From Lachnospiraceae bacterium (GTDB taxonomy: Bacteria > Bacillota > Clostridia > Lachnospirales > Lachnospiraceae), in contig JAGBMJ010000013.1 in assembly GCA_017634975.1 (NCBI GenBank), positions 1 to 64,000 on the forward strand: a DNA stretch of 64,000 bases, read 5' to 3'. Shown in pieces: positions 5,571 through 40,786 of this stretch; positions within the stretch are counted from its first letter, which is position 1, and every line of letters starts with the position of its first letter. The notes under the pieces are model-generated. The model ran no database searches. It saw only the letters and a program-made list of their open reading frames with translations, and was not told the origin of the DNA. The position numbers were made by a program, and so were the translations under genes.

Positions 5571-6683
5571 ATGGCAAGTCTTTCTTTGAAGAATGTCTGC
5601 AAGGTTTATCCGAACGGTTTCGAAGCTGTTAAGGATTTCAACCTGGAGATCGCAGACCAGGAATTCATCATCTTCGTAGGTCCTTCCGGATGTGGTAAGT
5701 CCACCACACTGCGTATGATCGCAGGTCTGGAAGACATCAGCTCCGGTGAGCTGCGCATCGGTGACCGTCTGGTAAACGACGTAGAGCCGAAGGATCGTGA
5801 TATCGCGATGGTATTCCAGAACTACGCTCTGTATCCGCATATGACCGTGTACGATAACATGGCATTCGGTCTGAAGCTTCGTAAGGTTCCTACCGATGAA
5901 ATCGATAAGATGGTTAAAGAAGCAGCTAAGATCCTGGATCTGGTTCCGTTGTTGGAGCGTAAGCCGAAGGCTTTGTCCGGTGGTCAGAGACAGCGTGTTG
6001 CTATGGGCCGTGCAATCGTTCGTAACCCGAAGGTATTCCTGATGGACGAGCCTCTGTCCAACCTGGATGCAAAACTTCGTGTACAGATGAGAATTGAGAT
6101 CGCTAAGCTGCACCAGAGACTGGGCACCACCATCATCTACGTAACACATGACCAGACCGAGGCTATGACACTTGGTACCCGTATCGTTGTTATGCGTGAC
6201 GGTGTGGTTCAGCAGGTAGATACCCCGCAGAACCTGTATGACAAGCCGGTGAACCTGTTCGTTGCAGGTTTCATGGGATCTCCGCAGATGAACTTCCTGG
6301 ATGCTGTAGTAGAAGTTCAGGGCGAGACCGCATACCTGAAGATCGCTGACAAGTCCATCCCTCTGAATGCAGAGAAGTCCAAGAAGATCATCGATGGTGG
6401 TTATGACGGCAAGACCGTTACCTTCGGTATCCGTCCGGAGGACGTATATGACAGCGAGATGATGGTAGAAGCTAATCCGCTGAGCGTATTCGAAGCTACC
6501 ATCCGTGTATACGAGCTTCTGGGTGCTGAAGTATTCCTGTACTTCGATCTGGATGAGTTCCCGATGACCGCACGTGTGGATCCGAGAACAACCGCAAGAC
6601 CGGGCGATGTAGTACGTTTCGCTTTCGATACCGACAAGATTCACGTATTCGACAAGGAAACCTCTCAGATCATCACCAACTAA
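5571..6683 (+). CDS. msmX: carbohydrate ABC transporter ATP-binding protein (MsmX/UgpC type)
   Basis: 370 residues. Energises sugar-uptake ABC permeases at the inner face of the membrane. ABC domain (1-235): Walker A GPSGCGKST, Q-loop, signature LSGGQRQRVAMGRA, Walker B VFLMDEPLSNLD, switch H in YVTHDQTEA. The C-terminal OB-like TOBE/MalK regulatory domain follows (about 240-370). No permease or binding-protein gene is adjacent, so it is probably a shared ATPase serving several distant sugar importers, as MsmX does in Bacillus. Codon use is shifted to GGT/CGT/GTT-type codons unlike its neighbours, suggesting high expression. Confidence 0.93.
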   Translation: MASLSLKNVCKVYPNGFEAVKDFNLEIADQEFIIFVGPSGCGKSTTLRMIAGLEDISSGELRIGDRLVNDVEPKDRDIAMVFQNYALYPHMTVYDNMAFGLKLRKVPTDEIDKMVKEAAKILDLVPLLERKPKALSGGQRQRVAMGRAIVRNPKVFLMDEPLSNLDAKLRVQMRIEIAKLHQRLGTTIIYVTHDQTEAMTLGTRIVVMRDGVVQQVDTPQNLYDKPVNLFVAGFMGSPQMNFLDAVVEVQGETAYLKIADKSIPLNAEKSKKIIDGGYDGKTVTFGIRPEDVYDSEMMVEANPLSVFEATIRVYELLGAEVFLYFDLDEFPMTARVDPRTTARPGDVVRFAFDTDKIHVFDKETSQIITN

Positions 6684-8269: not shown

Positions 8270-8347
8270 AAAAGTAAGTTATAGGTGAACTGTCACCGTG
8301 GCTCGTCCTTTTCCGGCCCGGCTGTGGCAATATATCATTGATCTGTA

Positions 8348-8376
8348 GCGCTTTCCATGAAAATGGAGAGCGTTTT
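8348..8376 (+). terminator. rho-independent terminator
   Basis: GCGCTTTCCAT / ATGGAGAGCG stem with GAAA loop and six T residues. It insulates the adhesin promoter from upstream transcription. Confidence 0.8.
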
Positions 8377-8406: not shown

Positions 8407-8455
8407 AAAATACATACTTTTGGCGGTAGTGGAAATATTTTTTCTGTGATAAAAT
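8407..8455 (+). promoter_or_regulatory. adhesin promoter with shared upstream element
   Basis: A 22-base element whose core is TACTTTTGGCGGTA (8415-8428) is followed by 21 bases and a -10 box TAAAAT (8450-8455). No good -35 is present, which suggests activator dependence. The same element and the same 21-base gap recur at 14550-14598. The leader to the ATG is about 57 bases. Confidence 0.65.
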
Positions 8456-8518
8456 CACGCAGATTGATCATCATGGTTGGCACGTGATGAGAATAAAATT
8501 CTAAACGGAGGGAAGAGA

Positions 8519-11500
8519 ATGAAGAAACTGAGACGATTTTTGGCAATGCTGTTGACGTTGCTCCTGTGTGTGGGTGAGTTTGCAGCCATGGGGCTTACGG
8601 TGCATGCAGCAAATGAGTATGACCTATGGGTCGGCGGTGTACGTGTTACCGATGATAACAAAGATGATATCGGCGGCGTTACCGGAGATGGTGCAAAGGC
8701 AAGCTATGATCCGGATACCAAGACTTTGTCTTTTAAGAATGTTACGGGGTTTGCCGGCACTCAAAATGATGCATATATATACACAAAAGATGACCTTACG
8801 ATCGAAGGAAATGTTTCAGCCGACTGCGATTATAATTATGGCATCCTGACAGAAAAAAGCGTGACAATAAAAGGGGATGTCGACTTTGACGAAACTGATA
8901 TTAGAGTGGAAGATCTTATTATAGATGGTGGTAGTCTTTCGGCGTCTAACAATGATATTGGTGCTGCATTAAATTGCTCAAATCTATGGGTCAAATCAGG
9001 AAAGGTTGCAGCAGGAAAAGGTAATCCTTATCCGGGCGGGGCAATTTCCGTAAAAAACTTAAAAATAGAAGATGGAAGTGTCATAGGAAATACTGTATAC
9101 TACGATACTGCAGTTTATGTGGGAAAACTGACGATGACAGGTGGTTTGTTGTATGCAGGCAATGATGATTGTGATGGTAATCCGTCTATAATAATAGGGG
9201 AGATTACTTCGGAAGAATCGATTGTAGTTCAAAAGCCGGTAGGAGGAAAAGTAGTAAAAGGTTCTTCCGGATATTGGATTGCTGATAGCGAGGGTAATAC
9301 TGCCCACGATGTTATTCTTATATACGGTGAATTTCTTGGACTTTGGGTCGGGGGTATACCCGTTACCAGTACGAACAAAGACGATATCCCCGGCGTTACC
9401 GGAGAAGGAGCAAAGGCAAGTTATGACCCGGATACCCAGACTTTAACGTTTGAGAATGTTACGGGTTTTGCCGGTACTTCCAGTGATGCATATATATACA
9501 CAAAGGATGACCTGACAATCGAAGGAAATGTTTCAGCCGACTGCGATTATAATTATGGCATCCTGGCAGAAAAAAGCGTGACAATAAAAGGAGATGTCGA
9601 CTTTGACGAAACTGATATTAGAGTGGAAGATCTTATTATAGAGGGTGGAAGTCTTTCTGCGTCTAACAATGATAGTGGTGCTGCATTAAATTGCTCAAAT
9701 CTATGGGTCAAATCAGGAAAGGTTGCAGCAGGAAAAGGTAATCCTTATCCGGGCGGGGCAATTTCCGTAAAAAACTTAAAAATAGAAGATGGAAGTGTCA
9801 TGGGAAATACTGCATACTACGATACTGCAGTTTATGTGGGAAAACTGACGATGACAGGTGGTTCGTTGTATGCAGGCAATGATGATTGTGAGGGTAATCC
9901 GCCTATAATAATAGGTGAAATTACTTCGGCAGATTTGATCACTGTCGAAACGCCTGTAGGCGGACAGATCATAAAAGGGGATCCCTGTTATTGGATTGCT
10001 GATAGTGAGGGCAATAATACGTCAGATGTCATTCTTAAGGGGAGCAAGGATTATAATCTCTGGGTAGGTGATAAGCGGGTTACATATGAAAACAAGGACG
10101 ATATCCTCGGGGATGGTAAGGCCAGTTTTGATCCGACAACACAAACGCTGAGTTTTGATAATGCAACAATTGCAACTGCCTACGATTATAAAGATGGCAG
10201 AAAAGCCGGAATCTATGCTGAAAAAATGTCACTCACCATTGACGGAAAAGTAAGCATTGTTCCGGAAGGCATTGATAGTACTTTCTTTGGCGTATACCTT
10301 AAAGGAACCGGAACGCAGAAACTGACTTTTGACGGTGATGTAACGATAAGTGGGTATAATAATGGTGTACTCGGGGAAAATGCGGAAATCGTTATTGCTG
10401 ACGGAAAGGTGGATATAGATTCAAAGAAGTGTGCTTATCAGAGCAATGTTGGGATCACTTTGGGAGAGGATGTGGAAGTGCTCTCTCCTGCCGGAACAGA
10501 ATTTAAGGTTCTGGATGGGTATTACTTCCTGGTTGATTCTGCGTCGGGAACAAGAATTGCAAAGGCGACGATCGGAACCACAAAAGAATCTTATACCGTA
10601 ACCTTTAATAAGAATGGTCATGGTGATGATATTGCTGCGGCTACGGTTAAGGAAGGAGAAAATGTATCGAAGCCTGAAGCTCCGACAGCAGCCGGATGGG
10701 TATTCGGTGGATGGTACACGGATGCAGATTGTACTACGGAGTATGACTTTACCAAGGCGGTAACAGGTGATCTGGAACTCTACGCAAAATGGACCAAAGA
10801 GAAAATCGATGTCTCCGGCGTAACGCTGGATAAGACAGCAGTATCGCTGGTGGAAGAAGAAACGGTAACGCTGGAGGCAACGGTAGCGCCGGACGATGCA
10901 ACAGACAAGACAGTGACCTGGTCTTCGAACAAGACAGGCGTAGCAACCGTAGATGCGGACGGTAAGGTAACAGCCGTAAAGGCCGGAACGGCAACGATCA
11001 CGGCGACAGCAACGAACGGAACGGATGCTGTAACGGATGACCAGACCGCGACCTGCACTGTGACGGTAACAGCTGCGGAGGAACCGAAGGTAGATGTGAC
11101 GGGTGTCACCCTGAACAAGATCACCATGGAATTGACGGAAGGAACGACCGGAACCTTAACGGCAACCGTGGTACCGACGGATGCAAGTGATAAGACCGTG
11201 ATCTGGTCTTCTGACAAGACAAGCGTAGCAACCGTAGATACGAACGGTAAGGTGACGGCAGTAAAAGCCGGAACGGCGATCATTACCGTAATGGCAACGA
11301 ACGGAACGGATGATGAGGCAGACGACAAGACTGCGACCTGCACTGTGACGGTAACGGCAGCGGAGGAACCGAAGGTAGATGTGACGGGTGTCAGCCTGAA
11401 CAAGACCACCATGGAATTGACGGAAGGAACGACAGGAACCTTGACGGCAACGGTAGCACCGGAGGATGCAAGTGATAAGACCGTGATCTGGTCTTCTGAC

Positions 11501-14500
11501 AAGACAAGCGTAGCAACCGTAAATACGGACGGTATGGTAACGGCAGTAAAAGCCGGAACGGCGATCATTACGGTAACGGCAACGAACGGAACGGATGATG
11601 AGGCAGACGACAAGACTGCGACCTGCACTGTGACGGTAACAGCTGCGGAGGAACCGAAGGTAGATGTGACGGGTGTCACCCTGAACAAGACCGCATTGGA
11701 ACTGACGGAAGGAACGAGCGGGACCCTGACGGCAACGGTAGCACCGGAGGATGCGACGGATACGACGGTGACATGGAAGTCAAGCGATGAGGCGGTAGCA
11801 ACGGTAGATAACAGTGGTAAGGTAACGGCAGTCGCAGCCGGAAGCGCAAAGATCACGGCAACGGCAACGAACGGAACCGAGGATACTGATGACGACAAGA
11901 CCGCGACCTGCACTGTGACCGTAACGGAAGAAGAAATACCGAAGGTAGATGTGACGGGTGTCACCCTGAACAAGACCGCATTGGAACTGACGGAAGGAAC
12001 GAGCGGAACCCTGATGGCAACGGTAGCCCCGGAGGATGCGACGGATGCGACTGTGACCTGGAAGTCGGATGATACGGGTGTGGCAACCGTGGATAATAGC
12101 GGTAAGGTAACGGCAATAAAGGCCGGAACGGCTACGATCACGGTAACGGCAACCAACGGAACCGATGATACAACGGATGACAAGACGGCGACCTGCAAGG
12201 TAACGGTAAAGGAAGCAGAAGTACCGAAGGTAGATGTATCGGGTGTCAGCCTGAACAAGACTACATTGGAACTACAGGAAGGCAAGACCGGAACGTTGAC
12301 GGCAACGGTAGCACCGGAGGATGCGACGGATGCGACCGTGACCTGGAAGTCGGATGATACGGGTGTGGCAACCGTGAATAACAGTGGCAAAGTAACGGCA
12401 GTAAAAGCCGGAACCGCAACCATCACGGTAACGGCAACGAACGGAACCGATGATACCAAAGATGATCAGACAGCAACTTGTACAGTAACGGTAACAGAAG
12501 CGGAGGCCCCGAAGGTAGATGTCTCTAAAGTGACGTTGGATCAGGATACCGTATCTCTTACAGAAGGAGAGAAGGTAACGCTGGAGGCAACAGTAGCACC
12601 GGACGATGCAACAGACAAGACAGTAACCTGCTCTTCGGATAAGGAAAGTGTAGCAACCGTAGATGAATCCGGTGTGGTAACGGCAGTAAAGGCCGGAACA
12701 GCAACGATCACAGTAACGGCAACGAACGGAACGGACGATACTGCAGATGACAAGACAGCAACCTGTACAGTAACGGTAACAGAGAAAGAAATCCCGAAGG
12801 TAGATGTGAGTGGTGTTACACTGAACAAGACAGAATTAACACTGCAGGAGGGAAAAACAGGAACACTGATCGCAACGGTAGCACCGGAGGACGCTGCCTG
12901 CAAAGATGTGATCTGGTCATCCGGCGATAAGACCGTAGCGATCGTCGATGCAGACGGTGTGGTCGCAGCAATGAAGGCCGGAACAGCAACGATCACAGTA
13001 ACGGCAACGAACGGAACGGACGATACTGCAGATGACAAGACTGCAACCTGTAAGGTAACTGTAACAAAAGAAGAAGTACCCACAGTAGATGTAACCGGTG
13101 TGATCCTGAACAAGGCGAAGCTGAACCTGACGGTTGGTGCAACATCTACGCTTACAGCATATGTAAAGCCGGTGGATGCAGCAGATCCGAGAGTCAGCTG
13201 GAGCAGCACGGATGAATCAGTAGCAACGGTAGATGAAAACGGAAAAGTAATGGCTGTTTCCGAAGGAACGACTAGCATCACAGTAAAGACTGTGGACGGT
13301 GGCTTCACGGCATCCTGTGAAGTGAATGTTACAAAGGAAGAAGTGAAACTGACCGGCATTAGTATCGATCCTACGGAACTGAAACTGGAGGAGGGCGAGA
13401 CAGCGACCCTGATCGTAGGCATGGTACCGGAGGATGCTACCGAGCAGAAGGTGGTATTCAGCAGCAGTGACGAAGCAGTCGCAACGGTAGATGCAGGCGG
13501 AAAGGTGACAGCAGCGGGAGCAGGTACGGCAACGATCACCGTAAAGACGGAGGACGAAGCATTTTCTGTTTCCTGTGAAGTGACGGTAGAAGCCAAGACG
13601 ACCGTAACAGTAACGGGTGTTAGCCTGAACAAAGTTGCCCTGGAACTGGCAGCCGGTAAGACGGCAGAACTGGTGGCAACCGTAGCACCGGAAGATGCGC
13701 CGAACAAGGATGTGACCTGGAGCAGCGACAAGCCTGCAGTGGCAACCGTAGATGAAAACGGTAAGGTAACGGCAGTCGCAGCTGGTGAGGCTACCATCAC
13801 CGTGACCACAGTGGAAGGGGAACAGAAGGCAAGCTGTACTGTCAATGTAGTGAAAAAGACGGAGATCAGCGCAAATACCTTCTCTCTGAAAGAGGCGGCA
13901 GAAGGTGTGCCTGTGATCAACAACAGCGATTATACCCTGATCGTGGTGATCGATCCTGAGAATGGTGCGATCAAGTCTGCAACGATCTATGGCCCGGATG
14001 GCAAGGTGGCAACGGAGATCGATTCCTATATCGTAAATATCGTTACCGAGTATGCTGCGGACGGAAAGACACCGAAGACCTTCTATTCACTGGTATTTAC
14101 GGACGGCAGGTGGGATACCAAATACGATTCTGCTACAAAGGGCGCGTATGAGTATAAGGGCGTAGAGTATTTTGTAGCCGGAGGTGTGGTAAACCAGAAT
14201 GCAAACGGTCTGATCTATACCGGCGCGGACGGCTGGAGATTCCTGGCTGCAGGCCACGTAGTTACAGATCACGAAGGTCTGGTAATGTATGCAAACGAGT
14301 GGTTCTGGATCGACAATGACGGCAAGTGTGATGATACCTATGCAGCAATCGTGAAGTGGAACGGAGCAGACTTCCTGGTACACGGCGGCAGACTGCGTAC
14401 GGATTATACCGGCTTCACCTACGATCCGCAGAACACGAGCAAGTGGTATCATATCACCGCCGGTCAGGTATGGGGCGAAGGTGAGATCACGGATCAGAGC

Positions 14501-14551
14501 ATCGAAGGCGGCGAGATCACACGCAATGTGGTAAAAGGTGCGGTTCAGTAA
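8519..14551 (+). CDS. giant secreted BIG2-domain surface protein
   Basis: 2010 residues. ATG chosen because GGAGGGAAG precedes it and it opens a classical signal peptide (basic MKKLRRF, hydrophobic core, cleavage after VHA at about 30). Order: two near-identical 239-residue repeats beginning LWVGG (about 35-512) and a shorter third (about 513-690), all repetitive and beta-rich; an InlB-type B repeat (about 690-760, GWVFGGWYTDADCTTEYDF); 11 BIG2 Ig-like domains (about 763-1780; the first eight ~95 residues, the last three ~86); and a C-terminal aromatic/Gly-rich module (about 1782-2010) reminiscent of cell-wall or glycan-binding repeats. No LPXTG motif or membrane anchor is present, so attachment probably depends on the C-terminal module. 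Likely an adhesin or surface-layer-associated protein. BIG2 number 7 has Cys in place of the conserved core Trp (VTCSSDK). Confidence 0.9.
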   Translation: MKKLRRFLAMLLTLLLCVGEFAAMGLTVHAANEYDLWVGGVRVTDDNKDDIGGVTGDGAKASYDPDTKTLSFKNVTGFAGTQNDAYIYTKDDLTIEGNVSADCDYNYGILTEKSVTIKGDVDFDETDIRVEDLIIDGGSLSASNNDIGAALNCSNLWVKSGKVAAGKGNPYPGGAISVKNLKIEDGSVIGNTVYYDTAVYVGKLTMTGGLLYAGNDDCDGNPSIIIGEITSEESIVVQKPVGGKVVKGSSGYWIADSEGNTAHDVILIYGEFLGLWVGGIPVTSTNKDDIPGVTGEGAKASYDPDTQTLTFENVTGFAGTSSDAYIYTKDDLTIEGNVSADCDYNYGILAEKSVTIKGDVDFDETDIRVEDLIIEGGSLSASNNDSGAALNCSNLWVKSGKVAAGKGNPYPGGAISVKNLKIEDGSVMGNTAYYDTAVYVGKLTMTGGSLYAGNDDCEGNPPIIIGEITSADLITVETPVGGQIIKGDPCYWIADSEGNNTSDVILKGSKDYNLWVGDKRVTYENKDDILGDGKASFDPTTQTLSFDNATIATAYDYKDGRKAGIYAEKMSLTIDGKVSIVPEGIDSTFFGVYLKGTGTQKLTFDGDVTISGYNNGVLGENAEIVIADGKVDIDSKKCAYQSNVGITLGEDVEVLSPAGTEFKVLDGYYFLVDSASGTRIAKATIGTTKESYTVTFNKNGHGDDIAAATVKEGENVSKPEAPTAAGWVFGGWYTDADCTTEYDFTKAVTGDLELYAKWTKEKIDVSGVTLDKTAVSLVEEETVTLEATVAPDDATDKTVTWSSNKTGVATVDADGKVTAVKAGTATITATATNGTDAVTDDQTATCTVTVTAAEEPKVDVTGVTLNKITMELTEGTTGTLTATVVPTDASDKTVIWSSDKTSVATVDTNGKVTAVKAGTAIITVMATNGTDDEADDKTATCTVTVTAAEEPKVDVTGVSLNKTTMELTEGTTGTLTATVAPEDASDKTVIWSSDKTSVATVNTDGMVTAVKAGTAIITVTATNGTDDEADDKTATCTVTVTAAEEPKVDVTGVTLNKTALELTEGTSGTLTATVAPEDATDTTVTWKSSDEAVATVDNSGKVTAVAAGSAKITATATNGTEDTDDDKTATCTVTVTEEEIPKVDVTGVTLNKTALELTEGTSGTLMATVAPEDATDATVTWKSDDTGVATVDNSGKVTAIKAGTATITVTATNGTDDTTDDKTATCKVTVKEAEVPKVDVSGVSLNKTTLELQEGKTGTLTATVAPEDATDATVTWKSDDTGVATVNNSGKVTAVKAGTATITVTATNGTDDTKDDQTATCTVTVTEAEAPKVDVSKVTLDQDTVSLTEGEKVTLEATVAPDDATDKTVTCSSDKESVATVDESGVVTAVKAGTATITVTATNGTDDTADDKTATCTVTVTEKEIPKVDVSGVTLNKTELTLQEGKTGTLIATVAPEDAACKDVIWSSGDKTVAIVDADGVVAAMKAGTATITVTATNGTDDTADDKTATCKVTVTKEEVPTVDVTGVILNKAKLNLTVGATSTLTAYVKPVDAADPRVSWSSTDESVATVDENGKVMAVSEGTTSITVKTVDGGFTASCEVNVTKEEVKLTGISIDPTELKLEEGETATLIVGMVPEDATEQKVVFSSSDEAVATVDAGGKVTAAGAGTATITVKTEDEAFSVSCEVTVEAKTTVTVTGVSLNKVALELAAGKTAELVATVAPEDAPNKDVTWSSDKPAVATVDENGKVTAVAAGEATITVTTVEGEQKASCTVNVVKKTEISANTFSLKEAAEGVPVINNSDYTLIVVIDPENGAIKSATIYGPDGKVATEIDSYIVNIVTEYAADGKTPKTFYSLVFTDGRWDTKYDSATKGAYEYKGVEYFVAGGVVNQNANGLIYTGADGWRFLAAGHVVTDHEGLVMYANEWFWIDNDGKCDDTYAAIVKWNGADFLVHGGRLRTDYTGFTYDPQNTSKWYHITAGQVWGEGEITDQSIEGGEITRNVVKGAVQ
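8621..10053 (+). repeat. 717-bp in-frame tandem duplication inside the adhesin gene
   Basis: Bases 8621-9337 and 9338-10054 are almost identical over long blocks at a constant offset of 717 (239 codons); a third, diverged and shorter unit begins at 10055 at the same offset. The high DNA identity of the first pair implies a recent duplication. Confidence 0.85.
10804..13862 (+). repeat. array of 11 BIG2-encoding repeats
   Basis: Units of about 285 bp (eight) then about 258 bp (three), each encoding V(D/T)V(T/S)GV.LNK through the closing TCTVTV-type strand. Several adjacent units share long identical DNA segments, which suggests expansion by recombination. The array is richer in GC than the 8.6-10.6 kb part of the same gene. 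Confidence 0.9.
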
Positions 14552-14598
14552 AATACCTACTTTTGGCGGTATCGCATCTCCGGATTCTATGATACTAT
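14550..14598 (+). promoter_or_regulatory. sensor-operon promoter with the same shared element
   Basis: The core TACTTTTGGCGGTA (14558-14571) is followed by 21 bases and a -10 box TACTAT (14593-14598). Over 22 bases the upstream element differs from the adhesin copy at one position. It starts at the final bases of the adhesin stop codon. Confidence 0.65.
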
Positions 14599-14621
14599 AT
14601 CAAAGAATCCGGAGATTTTTT
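14577..14621 (+). terminator. adhesin terminator overlapping the next promoter
   Basis: TCTCCGGATTCT (14577-14588) pairs with AGAATCCGGAGA (14604-14615), followed by TTTTTT. The left arm lies upstream of the predicted start of the sensor-operon transcript (about 14605), so only read-through RNA from the adhesin could form it. The GGAG in the right arm is the only ribosome-site candidate for the next gene. Confidence 0.75.
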
Positions 14622-14626
14622 ATATT

Positions 14627-16339
14627 ATGAACCGATTAAACTATGTAAATAAAAAGATCGCATTCCTGTTTGCCCTGCTGTTTCTCATGGGGATCGTATT
14701 CACGATGATCCCTGTGCATGGTCTGCGACCGCATCACATAGCGACTTTTGCCTATCTTGTCATGATCATGATGTGGTCGGTTACCATACAGACAAGGGTA
14801 ACAGACCGACAGATCGGCCGGCGCATCCTGATCGCCTGCTTTTTTATGGTATTGCTGTTTGTTCTCAGGATGTGCAAGTTTTCCTACTTTCCGAATGTGA
14901 CCATGGCCCGGCTTTATATATGGTATGCGTATTCGATCCCGCTGACGTTTATACCTCTTTTTTTCTTCCTTGCGGCGCTTTACGTGGAACCGGTCGAAAA
15001 TCGGGAAAGGGTTCGGAAGATCGAGAACGTATTGCTATTGACCAATGCGGCATTCGCCGTTGTGATCATGACGAATGAGCTGCATTCGTTTGTTTATAAG
15101 ATCACCGTATATCCGGACAAGGAATACACCCACGAATGGTTTTATTATATGCTGCTGTTTTGGAGGATCGCCCTGGCGATGGCGACGATCGTTATCCTGT
15201 TTCGGAAATGTTCTATTACTGCAGCCAGAAGGAAGTGGTACATTCCCGCGGTTTTTATTGCATTGAGTTCGGTGCTGCTCATATGGTATCTCATTAACGG
15301 CGGGGCACCGAAGATCGGTACACACAAGCTGTTTCAGTTCCATGAGGCTTTGTGCATTCCGTATATGATGGCGTTTGAAAGCATGATCCTGATCGGTATG
15401 ATACCGGCCAATTCCGGATACCGGATCCTGTTTGACCATTTAAGCATAGGAGCTGCGGTTTATGACAGTGAGGACCGGCAGGTCATGGCATCCCGTAAAT
15501 GGAGAGAAGACGGAGAAGATGAAGACCACCGTGTATGCAGGGAACCCATACAGGGAGGCTGTGTCCGATGGCTGCAGGATCTTTCGGCGGTAAATGAGAT
15601 CAATCGTTCCATCGAGACGGTAAAGGAAAGTCTGGAAGATGAAAATGAACTGATACGTCAGGAAAATGAGATACGCTCGGAGCGTATCCGTGTGGAAACC
15701 AGAAACCGGCTGTATAACCGGATCGCCGAGGCAGTCCGGACCCGCGCGATCCGTGTGGATGAACTGCTTGCGGGAATCTGCAGAAGTGCAGCATGGCCTT
15801 CCGAAGAAACGGAGAAATTTTTTACAGCCGGACAAGGTCAGGGAACAAAAAAGGAGGCGGAAGACACCAGGGACAGGATCGTATACGCAATGATCATGAG
15901 TGCGTACATCAAAAGGATGGGAAACCTGATCCTGCTTACCGATACCGGATCGCTTGTTTCCTCTGAAGAACTGGCGCTCGCCGTAAGTGAGTCACTGGAG
16001 TATCTGAAACTGAAAGGAAGCATGGTACAGATCTGTCGGGAAGGGAACATGGAACTTCCGCCGAGATTTGTATTGCTGGCCTACGAGTTGTTTGAAGAGA
16101 CGATCGAAGATATATGGCTTCGGATCAATACGGTCATGGTTTCTCTTATCTGCAGTGATGACTTTGAATTCCGGATCGCACTCGATGCGCCGGCAGAGGC
16201 AATCTCGTCCACATGGAAAGACAAAGAGCTGCGTTCGGCCGGAGCGAAGCTTACGGTGCGGTATGAAGATGAAACCTATTATATCAGTCTGAAGGTTTCG
16301 GCAGCCGCGCTTCGGGATAAGAAGGAGGTGGTACTATGA
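14627..16339 (+). CDS. 7TM sensor-like protein of an adhesin-linked signalling operon
   Basis: 570 residues. The N-terminal 245 residues contain about seven membrane helices in the pattern of the histidine-kinase N-terminal 7TM domain. A cytosolic part with a long coiled coil follows (about 325-365, SLEDENELIRQENEIRSERI). The C-terminal region (about 390-570) is laid out like a degenerate histidine-kinase core, but I see no H-box with a phosphorylatable His and no clear N or G boxes. It is probably a sensory partner of the next gene rather than an active kinase. The ribosome site is poor (GGAG 12 bases from the ATG, inside a hairpin arm). It overlaps the following kinase gene by four bases (ATGA). 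Confidence 0.75.
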   Translation: MNRLNYVNKKIAFLFALLFLMGIVFTMIPVHGLRPHHIATFAYLVMIMMWSVTIQTRVTDRQIGRRILIACFFMVLLFVLRMCKFSYFPNVTMARLYIWYAYSIPLTFIPLFFFLAALYVEPVENRERVRKIENVLLLTNAAFAVVIMTNELHSFVYKITVYPDKEYTHEWFYYMLLFWRIALAMATIVILFRKCSITAARRKWYIPAVFIALSSVLLIWYLINGGAPKIGTHKLFQFHEALCIPYMMAFESMILIGMIPANSGYRILFDHLSIGAAVYDSEDRQVMASRKWREDGEDEDHRVCREPIQGGCVRWLQDLSAVNEINRSIETVKESLEDENELIRQENEIRSERIRVETRNRLYNRIAEAVRTRAIRVDELLAGICRSAAWPSEETEKFFTAGQGQGTKKEAEDTRDRIVYAMIMSAYIKRMGNLILLTDTGSLVSSEELALAVSESLEYLKLKGSMVQICREGNMELPPRFVLLAYELFEETIEDIWLRINTVMVSLICSDDFEFRIALDAPAEAISSTWKDKELRSAGAKLTVRYEDETYYISLKVSAAALRDKKEVVL

Positions 16340-17583
16340 CTTATTCATCGCTTCCGGAAATCTACCGAACCGTTCTGCTGATTTTTGCAACGGTCATACT
16401 CATTGTATTGATCTATGCGATCGTACAGATCGTAGGACTTGCAGGCAGAAAACATTATCTCCTCTCTATGGTGGCGATGTTTCTGCTGACCTTTGTGCTT
16501 TATCAGGGAATGATCATGTATCAGGAAGGGGATATCGGATCGTTTGACGTTTCGCTTGCTATCCTGATCCCGCTGCTTTTGGGACTCTTTGCGGCTGCGC
16601 TTTTGGCACATGCGGGAATCCGGCGATGGCGTAGCGGGAACATCTCTGCAATGTCTGTAAAAGAGGCGGTAGACCGGCTGCCGGCAGGGGTCCTGTGTTA
16701 TACCGGGGACAAGATTCCCGTTATCGTAAATGAAAGCATGGATGTGATCAGCCGCAGACTGACCGGCAGATCGCTGACAGATGTGGAGGTGTTGTGGGAA
16801 GAGCTGGTGAAACGCTCCGGAAAGGAAAGCATATCCGAACATGACCCACTCATCATCAATGATGGGGAGAAAGCCTACAGCTTCCAAAGAAGTACCGTGC
16901 AGGTCAACGGCCTGGATGTGTACGAACTGTCTGCGGAGGATGTTACCGCAGAATACGAACTCGGAAGGGAACTGGAGGAGGCACGTAAACGGGCAGAGCT
17001 GATCAACAAGCGTTTGAAAGCTTTGATGGAATCGATCGATCATTTGAGTATGAACCGGGAACTGCTGGGGTTAAAGAGTGCACTCCATGATAATATCGGA
17101 CAGAGCATACTGATCGCAAGACGGTATCTCTATTCACCGGACAGTGTGGACCGGGAGCGGATGCTGCAGTTCTGGCAGGACAATATCCGGTATCTTGTAA
17201 GCGATGAGCATGAAAAATGGGAGCTGCCATACTACGCCATATCGAAGGAGGCAGACAGTCTCGGCATACACATCGATATCACGGGAAAGCTGCCGGACGA
17301 GCGGAGGCTGATTCCGGTGGTAGACACGGCGATCTCTGTGCAGATCGGCAATACATTGAAGCATACGAATGATACGACACTGATGATCCGTGTGAGTGAA
17401 ACGGAAGATACCTACCGGATATGTCTCACGAACGGGCAGGTGAGCCGGGTGGAACCAATCGTAGAAGGCGGCGGTCTCGGAAGCATGCGCAGCGAAGTGG
17501 AATCCGTGGGCGGAAGTATGGAGATCAAGACGGAACCGGTATTTGCAATCGAATTGACGCTTCCGAAGGGAGAGGAAGAGTAA
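16336..17583 (+). CDS. sensor histidine kinase (NarL/DesK-like)
   Basis: 415 residues. N-terminus with two to four membrane helices (about 13-35, 42-58, 67-92), a PAS-like middle (about 110-205), a coiled coil, then the H-box LKSALHDNIGQS with His251, typical of HisKA_3-type kinases. The ATP-binding end is recognisable: an N-box-like stretch (IGNTLKHTND) and a GGGLGSMRSEVESVGG G-box. It phosphorylates a response regulator, almost certainly the one encoded next. Start overlaps the stop of the 7TM gene; ribosome site GAAGGAGGTGG is strong. Confidence 0.85.
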   Translation: MTYSSLPEIYRTVLLIFATVILIVLIYAIVQIVGLAGRKHYLLSMVAMFLLTFVLYQGMIMYQEGDIGSFDVSLAILIPLLLGLFAAALLAHAGIRRWRSGNISAMSVKEAVDRLPAGVLCYTGDKIPVIVNESMDVISRRLTGRSLTDVEVLWEELVKRSGKESISEHDPLIINDGEKAYSFQRSTVQVNGLDVYELSAEDVTAEYELGRELEEARKRAELINKRLKALMESIDHLSMNRELLGLKSALHDNIGQSILIARRYLYSPDSVDRERMLQFWQDNIRYLVSDEHEKWELPYYAISKEADSLGIHIDITGKLPDERRLIPVVDTAISVQIGNTLKHTNDTTLMIRVSETEDTYRICLTNGQVSRVEPIVEGGGLGSMRSEVESVGGSMEIKTEPVFAIELTLPKGEEE

Positions 17584-17683
17584 GTGCAGCGGTTTGCAGA
17601 CATTGTGGCTGTAAATCGTAACAATCGTAGTGATTGAAAACAGAGCGGCGAGTGTGCTCTGTATAAGAAAGGCGAGTAAGAAA

Positions 17684-18313
17684 ATGGGAAAACCATACAG
17701 AGTGGTCATAGCGGAAGATTTTCGTATCATCCGGGAAGTGTTTGAAAGTGCGGTAAGGCAGAGCGAAGAATATACGCTGGAGGCATCCTTTCCGACGGCA
17801 AAGGATGCCGTAAAGTATCTGGAGTCACACGCAGCGGAACTTGTGCTGATGGATGTGCTGATCCCGGGGAGTATGGACGGGATCGAAGCGGCGGGAATGA
17901 TCAAGCGTATGAAGCCGGAGATCCGGATCATCATTGTCACTTCCATGCCGGAGCTGTCTTATGAGCGGAGAGCCAGAGAGATCGGCGTAGAGGGATTCTG
18001 GCAGAAGGAAGTGCAGGAGATCACCATCACGCAGATCATGGATCGTGTGATGGCCGGAGAGACGGTATATCCTGAGAGTCCGGTGGCGGTTCCGATCGGG
18101 GATGCGATCAGTACGGAGTTTACCGAGCGGGAGATCGAGATCTTACGGGAACTGGTAGCCGGAGCCTCCAATAAGGAGATCGCGGATAAGATGTGCCTGG
18201 AGGCTTCGACGGTCAAGATGCATATCTCCAATATGCTGCAAAAGACCGGTTACAAAAGCCGGCTGGAGCTGGCAGTCAAAGTAAGACACAACGGGCTGAT
18301 CATAAACAGCTGA
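17684..18313 (+). CDS. NarL/LuxR-family response regulator
   Basis: About 209 residues. Receiver domain (residues 1-120) with acidic residues near the N-terminus (VVIAEDFR), phospho-acceptor Asp57 (LVLMDVLIPG) and a late Lys. C-terminal LuxR-type HTH (about 145-205): FTEREIEILRELVAGASNKE then VKMHISNML. The ATG at 17684 is preferred to one 18 codons upstream because AAAGGCGAG precedes it and the receiver then has normal length. It follows the kinase gene by 100 bases. By position it is the best candidate for the factor that binds the shared TACTTTTGGCGGTA element. Confidence 0.9.
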   Translation: MGKPYRVVIAEDFRIIREVFESAVRQSEEYTLEASFPTAKDAVKYLESHAAELVLMDVLIPGSMDGIEAAGMIKRMKPEIRIIIVTSMPELSYERRAREIGVEGFWQKEVQEITITQIMDRVMAGETVYPESPVAVPIGDAISTEFTEREIEILRELVAGASNKEIADKMCLEASTVKMHISNMLQKTGYKSRLELAVKVRHNGLIINS

Positions 18314-40439: not shown

Positions 40440-40670
40440 CACTGGTGTTTTTCTCTTGCATTTTTCCGGGACATACAGTAAAATGACAATGGTTCCGGCA
40501 CTACGTGCCGGGGCTGAGAAAGGAAGATTTGCCATACGGCAAATCACAGAAGCGCCTCAAAGTTCCAAGCTCCGCCAGGAGCGCGACAAGGATTTCGAAG
40601 AAATCCCGATTGGATTTCGAAGAAATCCCGATAAAAGGCGCGGGCTCCCCCGCACGAAGTGCGGGGGCAG
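40440..40670. other. hairpin-dense non-coding stretch upstream of the riboswitch
   Basis: No convincing gene. It holds CCGGCACTACGTGCCGG, ATTTGCCATACGGCAAAT, two identical 21-base copies of GGATTTCGAAGAAATCCCGA(T) at 40590-40610 and 40612-40632 (each a small palindrome), and CCCCCGCACGAAGTGCGGGGG. This is typical of nested intergenic repeats in Clostridia. It may also act as the terminator of the peptidase locus. Confidence 0.6.
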
Positions 40671-40760
40671 AGATATGTGACTGACGGAAAGCCCGGTATA
40701 CGGGATAGTGGAGTTCACCACATGGAGCATATCTTGGAAGTAAGAAACCGACCGTCTGGG
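40671..40760 (+). promoter_or_regulatory. ZTP (pfl) riboswitch aptamer
   Basis: P1: AGATATG (40671-40677) pairs with CATATCT (40728-40734). The conserved TGACTGACGG lies 5' and GTGG/CCAC (40708-40711, 40718-40721) forms the second stem. The CCGACCGTCTGGG block closes the motif; GACGG (40683-40687) can form the pseudoknot with CCGTC (40752-40756). A small CCCG/CGGG hairpin is inserted after ACGGAAA. Known role: binding ZTP/ZMP (AICAR phosphates) turns on folate/purine genes when one-carbon supply is short. The downstream gene is purO. Confidence 0.85.
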
Positions 40761-40786
40761 TACCATGTGGTTCCCGGACGGTTTTT
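40749..40786 (+). terminator. riboswitch expression-platform terminator
   Basis: ACCGTCTGGG (40751-40760) pairs with CCCGGACGGT (40773-40782), then TTTTT. The left arm is the 3' block of the aptamer, so ligand binding and termination exclude each other. Confidence 0.85.

Follow-up and report, generated by a model that had tools for sequence, protein, structure and literature searches.

We analysed a 64,000-nucleotide stretch of DNA (the window) from a Lachnospiraceae bacterium (assembly GCA_017634975.1, contig JAGBMJ010000013.1) and identified a short element that occurs twice in it, once before the gene for a giant secreted protein and once before a three-gene operon encoding a membrane protein (S1), a histidine kinase (M2) and a response regulator. 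We consider it highly probable, judging from comparisons of genome sequences, that this element is the operator of the NarL-family response regulator and that it marks a regulon through which the regulator, acting as a class II activator, controls surface proteins in Lachnospiraceae as well as its own expression. A preliminary description of this DNA had placed the exact core TACTTTTGGCGGTA at 8415-8428 and 14558-14571, inside a 22-base block with one mismatch; we recovered both positions, and 8407-8428 and 14550-14571 are identical at 21 of 22 bases. At each copy it had also described a gap of 21 bases followed by a -10 box (TAAAAT and TACTAT), which a pattern search reproduced. The two promoters comprise the following features:

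8411-8428, forward strand: operator 1, TACATACTTTTGGCGGTA, found by pattern search.
8450-8455, forward strand: -10 box TAAAAT, 21 nucleotides past operator 1, a 5/6 match, with transcription predicted to start near 8462.
14554-14571, forward strand: operator 2, TACCTACTTTTGGCGGTA, which begins 2 bases past the stop codon of the giant gene.
14593-14598, forward strand: -10 box TACTAT, 21 nucleotides past operator 2 and at a hairpin tip, a 4/6 match, with transcription predicted to start near 14604-14605.

No hexamer with more than three of six matches to TTGACA was found 15-19 nucleotides upstream of either -10 box, in agreement with the earlier remark that neither promoter has a good -35. The preliminary description had regarded the identical geometry as hard to obtain by chance and had proposed searching the complete genome for the core at the same distance from a -10 box. 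In the whole 4,358,770-base assembly, TACTTTTGGCGGTA has two exact matches, both of them the window sites, and a degenerate operator followed by exactly 21 nucleotides and TANNNT matches twice, at the same two places (the reversed control gave 0 in each search). Four further matches to the 18-mer, each with three mismatches, were dismissed as chance because the control gives nine and none of the four has a -10 box at 21 nucleotides. The restriction to these two copies, together with the retention of the 21-nucleotide spacing in relatives, indicates that the shared geometry goes beyond chance.

When 35 genomes of the genus were searched, there were 15 exact matches to the core TACTTTTGGCGGTA (3 in the reversed control), and TACCTACTTTTGGCGGTA with up to two mismatches matched 34 times (11 in the control). 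Comparison of the flanks in relatives revealed an 18-bp imperfect dyad, TACCnnC-N4-GnnGGTA, in which two heptamers are inverted, though not perfectly, around a 4-bp spacer. After 6 redundant copies of the 34 were removed, the 28 that remained, chosen by motif alone whatever lay downstream, included 21 with a -10 match at exactly 21 nucleotides, 19 of these matching at 5 or more of six positions; other offsets averaged 1.5. Around the copies in relatives, only the operator and the -10 box at fixed spacing are conserved, and other sequence differs. The operator takes four forms (TACCTAC-TTTT-GGCGGTA, TACCCCC-AAAT-GGCGGTA, TACCGCC-TTTT-GGCGGTA and TAGAC-nTTT-GGnGGTA), the third of which, with perfectly inverted heptamers, is found in locus L181.

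The promoter pattern was found together with orthologues of the regulator. A search of the genus genomes with TACCNNCNNNNGGNGGTA-N19-22-TANNNT gave 36 matches compared with 4 for the reversed control; not all 36 are independent, as one of them is a near-palindromic site of genome G017 read in reverse, and genome G022 contributes two near-duplicate pairs. Thirty-five of them fell in the 9 genomes that encode a regulator orthologue of at least 70% identity and one in the other 26. The pattern was thus present in 9 of 9 genomes with such an orthologue and in 1 of 26 without (Fisher P 1.4e-7). Genome G011 holds 8 strict sites, and the genome of the window, with 2, stands at the small end. Among 250 genomes of the family, representing 249 genera, matches outside the genus were at or below control level (12 versus 26 in the control). 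When named genomes were searched with an alignment of the regulator, 37 loci were retrieved; 36 bear the title Lachnospiraceae or Butyrivibrio and the remaining one that of an uncultured Eubacterium, and rumen samples are named in several titles. Using a relaxed pattern (C-N4-G[GA]NGGTA plus a -10 box), we found an operator within 500 nucleotides upstream of S1 at 22 of 30 distinct orthologous loci, with a spacing of 21 nucleotides in 20, 20 nucleotides in one and 22 nucleotides in one. The 30 loci are 41 rows less 8 duplicate contigs and 3 distant S1 proteins (27-28% identity), and count the near-identical pairs L188/L189 and L176/L178 as separate loci. Because the -10 spacing is conserved in relatives and the promoter pattern co-occurs with the regulator orthologue, the interpretation of the element as a shared activator-type site, which the preliminary description had suggested, is strongly supported.

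The proposed binder of the operator is encoded by the last gene of the sensor operon:

17684-18313, forward strand: NarL/FixJ-type response regulator (Response_reg 4.1e-18, GerE 1.2e-16).

The presence of both a receiver domain and a LuxR-type (GerE) helix-turn-helix places this protein in the NarL/FixJ family. Its reading frame has an alternative GTG start at 17630, 54 bases upstream, and orthologues favour the ATG at 17684. The aspartate of VLMDVLIP (D56 in alignment A1), which we take to be the phospho-acceptor, is invariant in all nine regulator rows, and a single match to the regulator at E <= 1e-40 was found in the genome of the window. The protein scored below the NCBIfam cut-off for NarL (77.6 bits versus 250), as it did for FimZ, its best NCBIfam match (90.4 versus 271), and its best named matches in a PDB search were DesR and VraR, above NarL. 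Paralogous regulators in the genus (39-50% identity) mostly have NTVKRHIQNM as the helix that reads STVKMHISNM in orthologues. No TACC or TAGAC site was found in 14 paralogue regions, whereas the same patterns found sites in 4 of 4 orthologue regions; the first motif form alone was unfit for this comparison, since it also finds none in the four orthologue regions. Several genus genomes contain paralogous S1-M2-regulator systems without this operator (L132-L145), sometimes more than one.

In a tree of the regulators, the second site class was grouped (4 rows, 97/99), as were four of the six rows of the first class (97/92), with the row of the window itself unplaced. The fourth class (TAGAC) was grouped at 100/100 and contains 11 rows, one of them siteless and one with a degenerate site. 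The TAGAC left half also occurs before genes for secreted proteins or lipoproteins, which lie behind the operon in L184, L188 and L191 and in another part of the locus in L199; in all four, the site is 21 nucleotides from a -10 box. That one regulator clade shares this altered left half between S1 and other promoters points to a common binder. A further TAGAC match in L202 has a weaker -10 box at 22 nucleotides and is followed by no convincing gene.

Several observations weigh against the regulon as we propose it. Genome G226 encodes a regulator of 70% identity and has no match to the strict pattern, and genome G012 has the regulator and only the second motif form, the first being absent at up to two mismatches. 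Eight of the 30 orthologous S1 loci had no site under the relaxed pattern, although two of these (L183 and L201) seem by eye to carry degenerate forms, and no site was found in the stretches examined around distant regulators (50-57% identity; L204-L208). The dyad is not a perfect one, and in the window itself the left half of operator 1 deviates (TACA). Descent alone would also make the site class at the linked S1 promoter track the phylogeny of the regulator. Finally, NarL of the Escherichia coli NarX/NarL nitrate system, which shares the receiver and LuxR-type helix-turn-helix, is described in the available extract of PMC4549865 as binding inverted heptamers, and the half-site here is close to the engineered NarL site TACCCCTAAAGGGGTA given there; however, the heptamers are separated by 4 bp here and by 2 bp in the 7-2-7 arrangement of NarL. 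Also unlike NarL, the genes downstream of the operator are mostly those of secreted surface proteins.

The operator could instead be real and bound by another regulator encoded elsewhere, with the two-component operon as one of its targets. The assignment to the linked regulator rests on co-occurrence and linkage, and some genomes with the regulator, such as G226, have no recognisable sites. However, the co-occurrence itself, the NarL-like half-site and the operator at the promoter of the regulator's own operon in 22 of 30 loci, or once (L065, at 11893) directly before the regulator gene, all argue against a different binder, which we consider unlikely. Together with the 14 paralogue regions devoid of sites, these lines of evidence give good, if indirect, support to the NarL-type regulator at 17684-18313, which the preliminary description had named as a plausible binder.

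If the -10 box is taken to span -12 to -7, the dyad would cover -51 to -34, with its centre at -42.5. A position near -42.5 is typical of class II activators. As in promoters of that class, the site lies across the -35 region at a fixed distance from the -10 box, and the window promoters are without a -35. We propose that a dimer of the regulator bound at the -35 position (centre about -42.5) would recruit RNA polymerase to the -10 box 21 nucleotides downstream. The element would drive two units in this genome, namely the gene for the giant Big_2 secreted protein and the operon of S1, M2 and the regulator, and the operator before its own operon would lead to positive autoregulation. Phosphorylation of the regulator by M2, with S1 as a seven-transmembrane (7TM) co-sensor, would presumably trigger binding. 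We infer the binding of the operator by this regulator, activation as its effect, and the start sites. The available extract of PMC3376562 describes the lux box as an inverted repeat centred at -42.5, the same position as that predicted here. The lux box is 20 bp long, compared with 18 bp for this dyad. LuxR also differs in being an autoinducer-binding protein rather than a response regulator.

Repression by the same regulator would place a dimer over the -35 region, where it could block polymerase, and a site over about -51 to -34 is compatible with either action. However, both window promoters lack a -35-like hexamer, and the 21-nucleotide distance to the -10 box is fixed, as it would be for an activator touching polymerase. 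A repressor site is expected to tolerate variable spacing, and we regard repression as improbable, more so than a different binder.

Two terminator-like structures lie close to the operators:

8347-8374, forward strand: terminator-like hairpin with a 12-bp stem and a T run, upstream of operator 1, found by a terminator scan.
14576-14621, forward strand: terminator hairpin with a T run, whose 19-bp arms (14576-14594 and 14598-14616) are 95% complementary.

The first of these probably belongs to the preceding gene. The second, which the preliminary description does not mention, contains the -10 box and the predicted start of the sensor operon, and the second copy of the element could be read as the 3' end or terminator of the giant gene, with TACTAT in the hairpin by chance. 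The 4/6 match of this -10 box and its place inside a 19-bp terminator hairpin favour such a reading. However, at 22 of 30 orthologous S1 loci the operator is present, in 20 of them with the 21-nucleotide spacing, and the -10 box is a better match in nearly all of these; the overlap with a terminator also recurs at other promoters of the set, and we find it very unlikely that the second copy is not a promoter. A dispersed repeat, a site of attachment or recombination, or a 22-base match by chance, as might be supposed from two near-identical 22-mers that flank one large gene, is contradicted by the two-copy genome count and by the operator and -10 spacing conserved amid differing flanks, and these readings were dropped as having almost no probability. 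Readings as LytTR, ECF or sigma-54 elements, weighed from general knowledge only, were dropped because of the NarL-like dyad and the sigma-70-type -10 box.

The predicted fold energy of 14572-14622 is -25.1 kcal/mol, compared with -0.7 for 14605-14622. An RNA begun near 14605 would keep the 3' arm only, so that it should not terminate at this point and should leave the GGAG upstream of S1 exposed. A strict scan found a hairpin and T run between the operator and the early leader in 12 of 24 promoters and in 22 of 2000 random windows, a contrast that is overstated since the random windows are mostly coding and gene ends normally have terminators; the 24 promoters were also hand-picked, and three non-S1 promoters (two of L054 and one of L063), all among the 12 positives, were taken after the hairpin had been seen. 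Nine of the 20 S1 promoters were positive, with that of the window missed owing to a mismatch. In 8 of the 12, the right half-site of the operator is the 5' arm of the terminator (GGCGGTA/TACCGCC or GGGGGTA/TACCCCC), and the partner arm varies in step. It is conceivable, but doubtful, that operator, promoter and terminator form one fused device, in which the terminator of the upstream gene either uses the regulator-bound half-site as its 5' arm or engulfs the -10 box and start. Bound regulator could then set both downstream initiation and upstream read-through, and transcripts begun inside the hairpin would not be terminated and would uncover a ribosome site hidden in read-through RNA. Regulatory use of the overlap is speculation; if real, the fusion would provide compact insulation of a promoter from read-through. 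Rfam at its gathering threshold gave no match at either operator site, and its sole match in the window is a ZMP/ZTP riboswitch (40667-40768, forward strand, 51.1 bits).

The two sensor genes precede the regulator in the operon behind operator 2:

14627-16339, forward strand: S1, a membrane protein of 570 amino acids; HisKA_7TM is matched by 12 of 22 aligned members, the protein of the window not among them.
16336-17583, forward strand: M2, a histidine kinase identified by an HDNIGQ box, HATPase_c in aligned members and profile matches.

No kinase catalytic domain was recognised in S1, a likeness to M2 was sought by profile comparison and not found, and S1 had no significant match among solved structures (best E 0.15). 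We propose S1 as a co-sensor. The HDNIGQ box of M2 is invariant in all 22 rows, and HATPase_c was matched in 13 of the 22 aligned members; the window protein alone has no Pfam match. A kinase with an H-box and an ATP-binding domain therefore adjoins the regulator, as in two-component systems. The catalytic region of M2 matches VraS (2.2e-9), DevS and DesK in profile searches and, with a regulator nearest to DesR and VraR in the PDB, resembles the VraSR and DesKR systems of Bacillota; unlike these, the operon here has the additional 7TM protein S1. The operators and target genes of VraR and DesR also differ from those here. At eight loci (L062, L179, L186, L192, L193, L194, L196 and L197), S1 starts 32-34 nucleotides past the operator, so that its start codon roughly coincides with the predicted +1, and these S1 mRNAs are possibly leaderless.

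The giant gene lies behind operator 1:

8519-14551, forward strand: secreted 2010-amino-acid Big_2 repeat protein, a putative giant adhesin, with an ATG at 8519, a signal-peptide-like N-terminus, 11 Big_2 stretches and Flg_new.

We call this protein a putative adhesin from its domains. Its gene contains a 300-base direct repeat at 8624-9640 (spacing 717 bp, 89% alike) and eight 300-base copies at 10801-13095 (spacing 285 bp, 69-79% alike to the reference copy). We inspected by eye 27 genes downstream of operators. This set leaves out the sites before S1 or the regulator, near-duplicates, palindromic sites read in reverse, and any site that lacks a plausible gene or -10 box or was judged chance (L056, L066, L069, L151, L176 and L183). 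A signal-peptide- or lipoprotein-like N-terminus was found in 25 of the 27, some of which are homologous to one another and a few of which show it only from an internal start. The two exceptions were a TIR-domain protein of L051 and a site that no convincing gene follows. Pfam was applied to 17 of the 27, and 10 (L051, L052, one of L054, L055, L059, two of L060, L061, L070 and L130) match Big_2, Listeria-Bacteroides or InlB-type repeats, beta-helix or related domains; of the others, one matched TIR, one DUF5067 and five nothing. Several of the downstream proteins share a signal peptide resembling KRFLAMLLTLxLCVGEFxxTGLxV. The TIR-domain protein of L051 (3607-5994, reverse strand, 796 amino acids) has its own operator at 6046 with a perfect TATAAT at 21 nucleotides; apart from the sensor operon, no other downstream gene seen was clearly non-secreted.

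The mechanism is of a known kind, and a literature search limited to open-licence papers found no description of this operator or regulon. If our interpretation is correct, it would show, through an operator code that can be read and a set of listed downstream genes, how Lachnospiraceae, including Butyrivibrio isolates, control giant secreted proteins. It would likewise give a target set (Big_2, InlB-repeat and beta-helix proteins and lipoproteins) to an unnamed family of 7TM-sensor two-component systems. In that case, the regulon would represent a self-controlled surface switch in gut bacteria of the family Lachnospiraceae.

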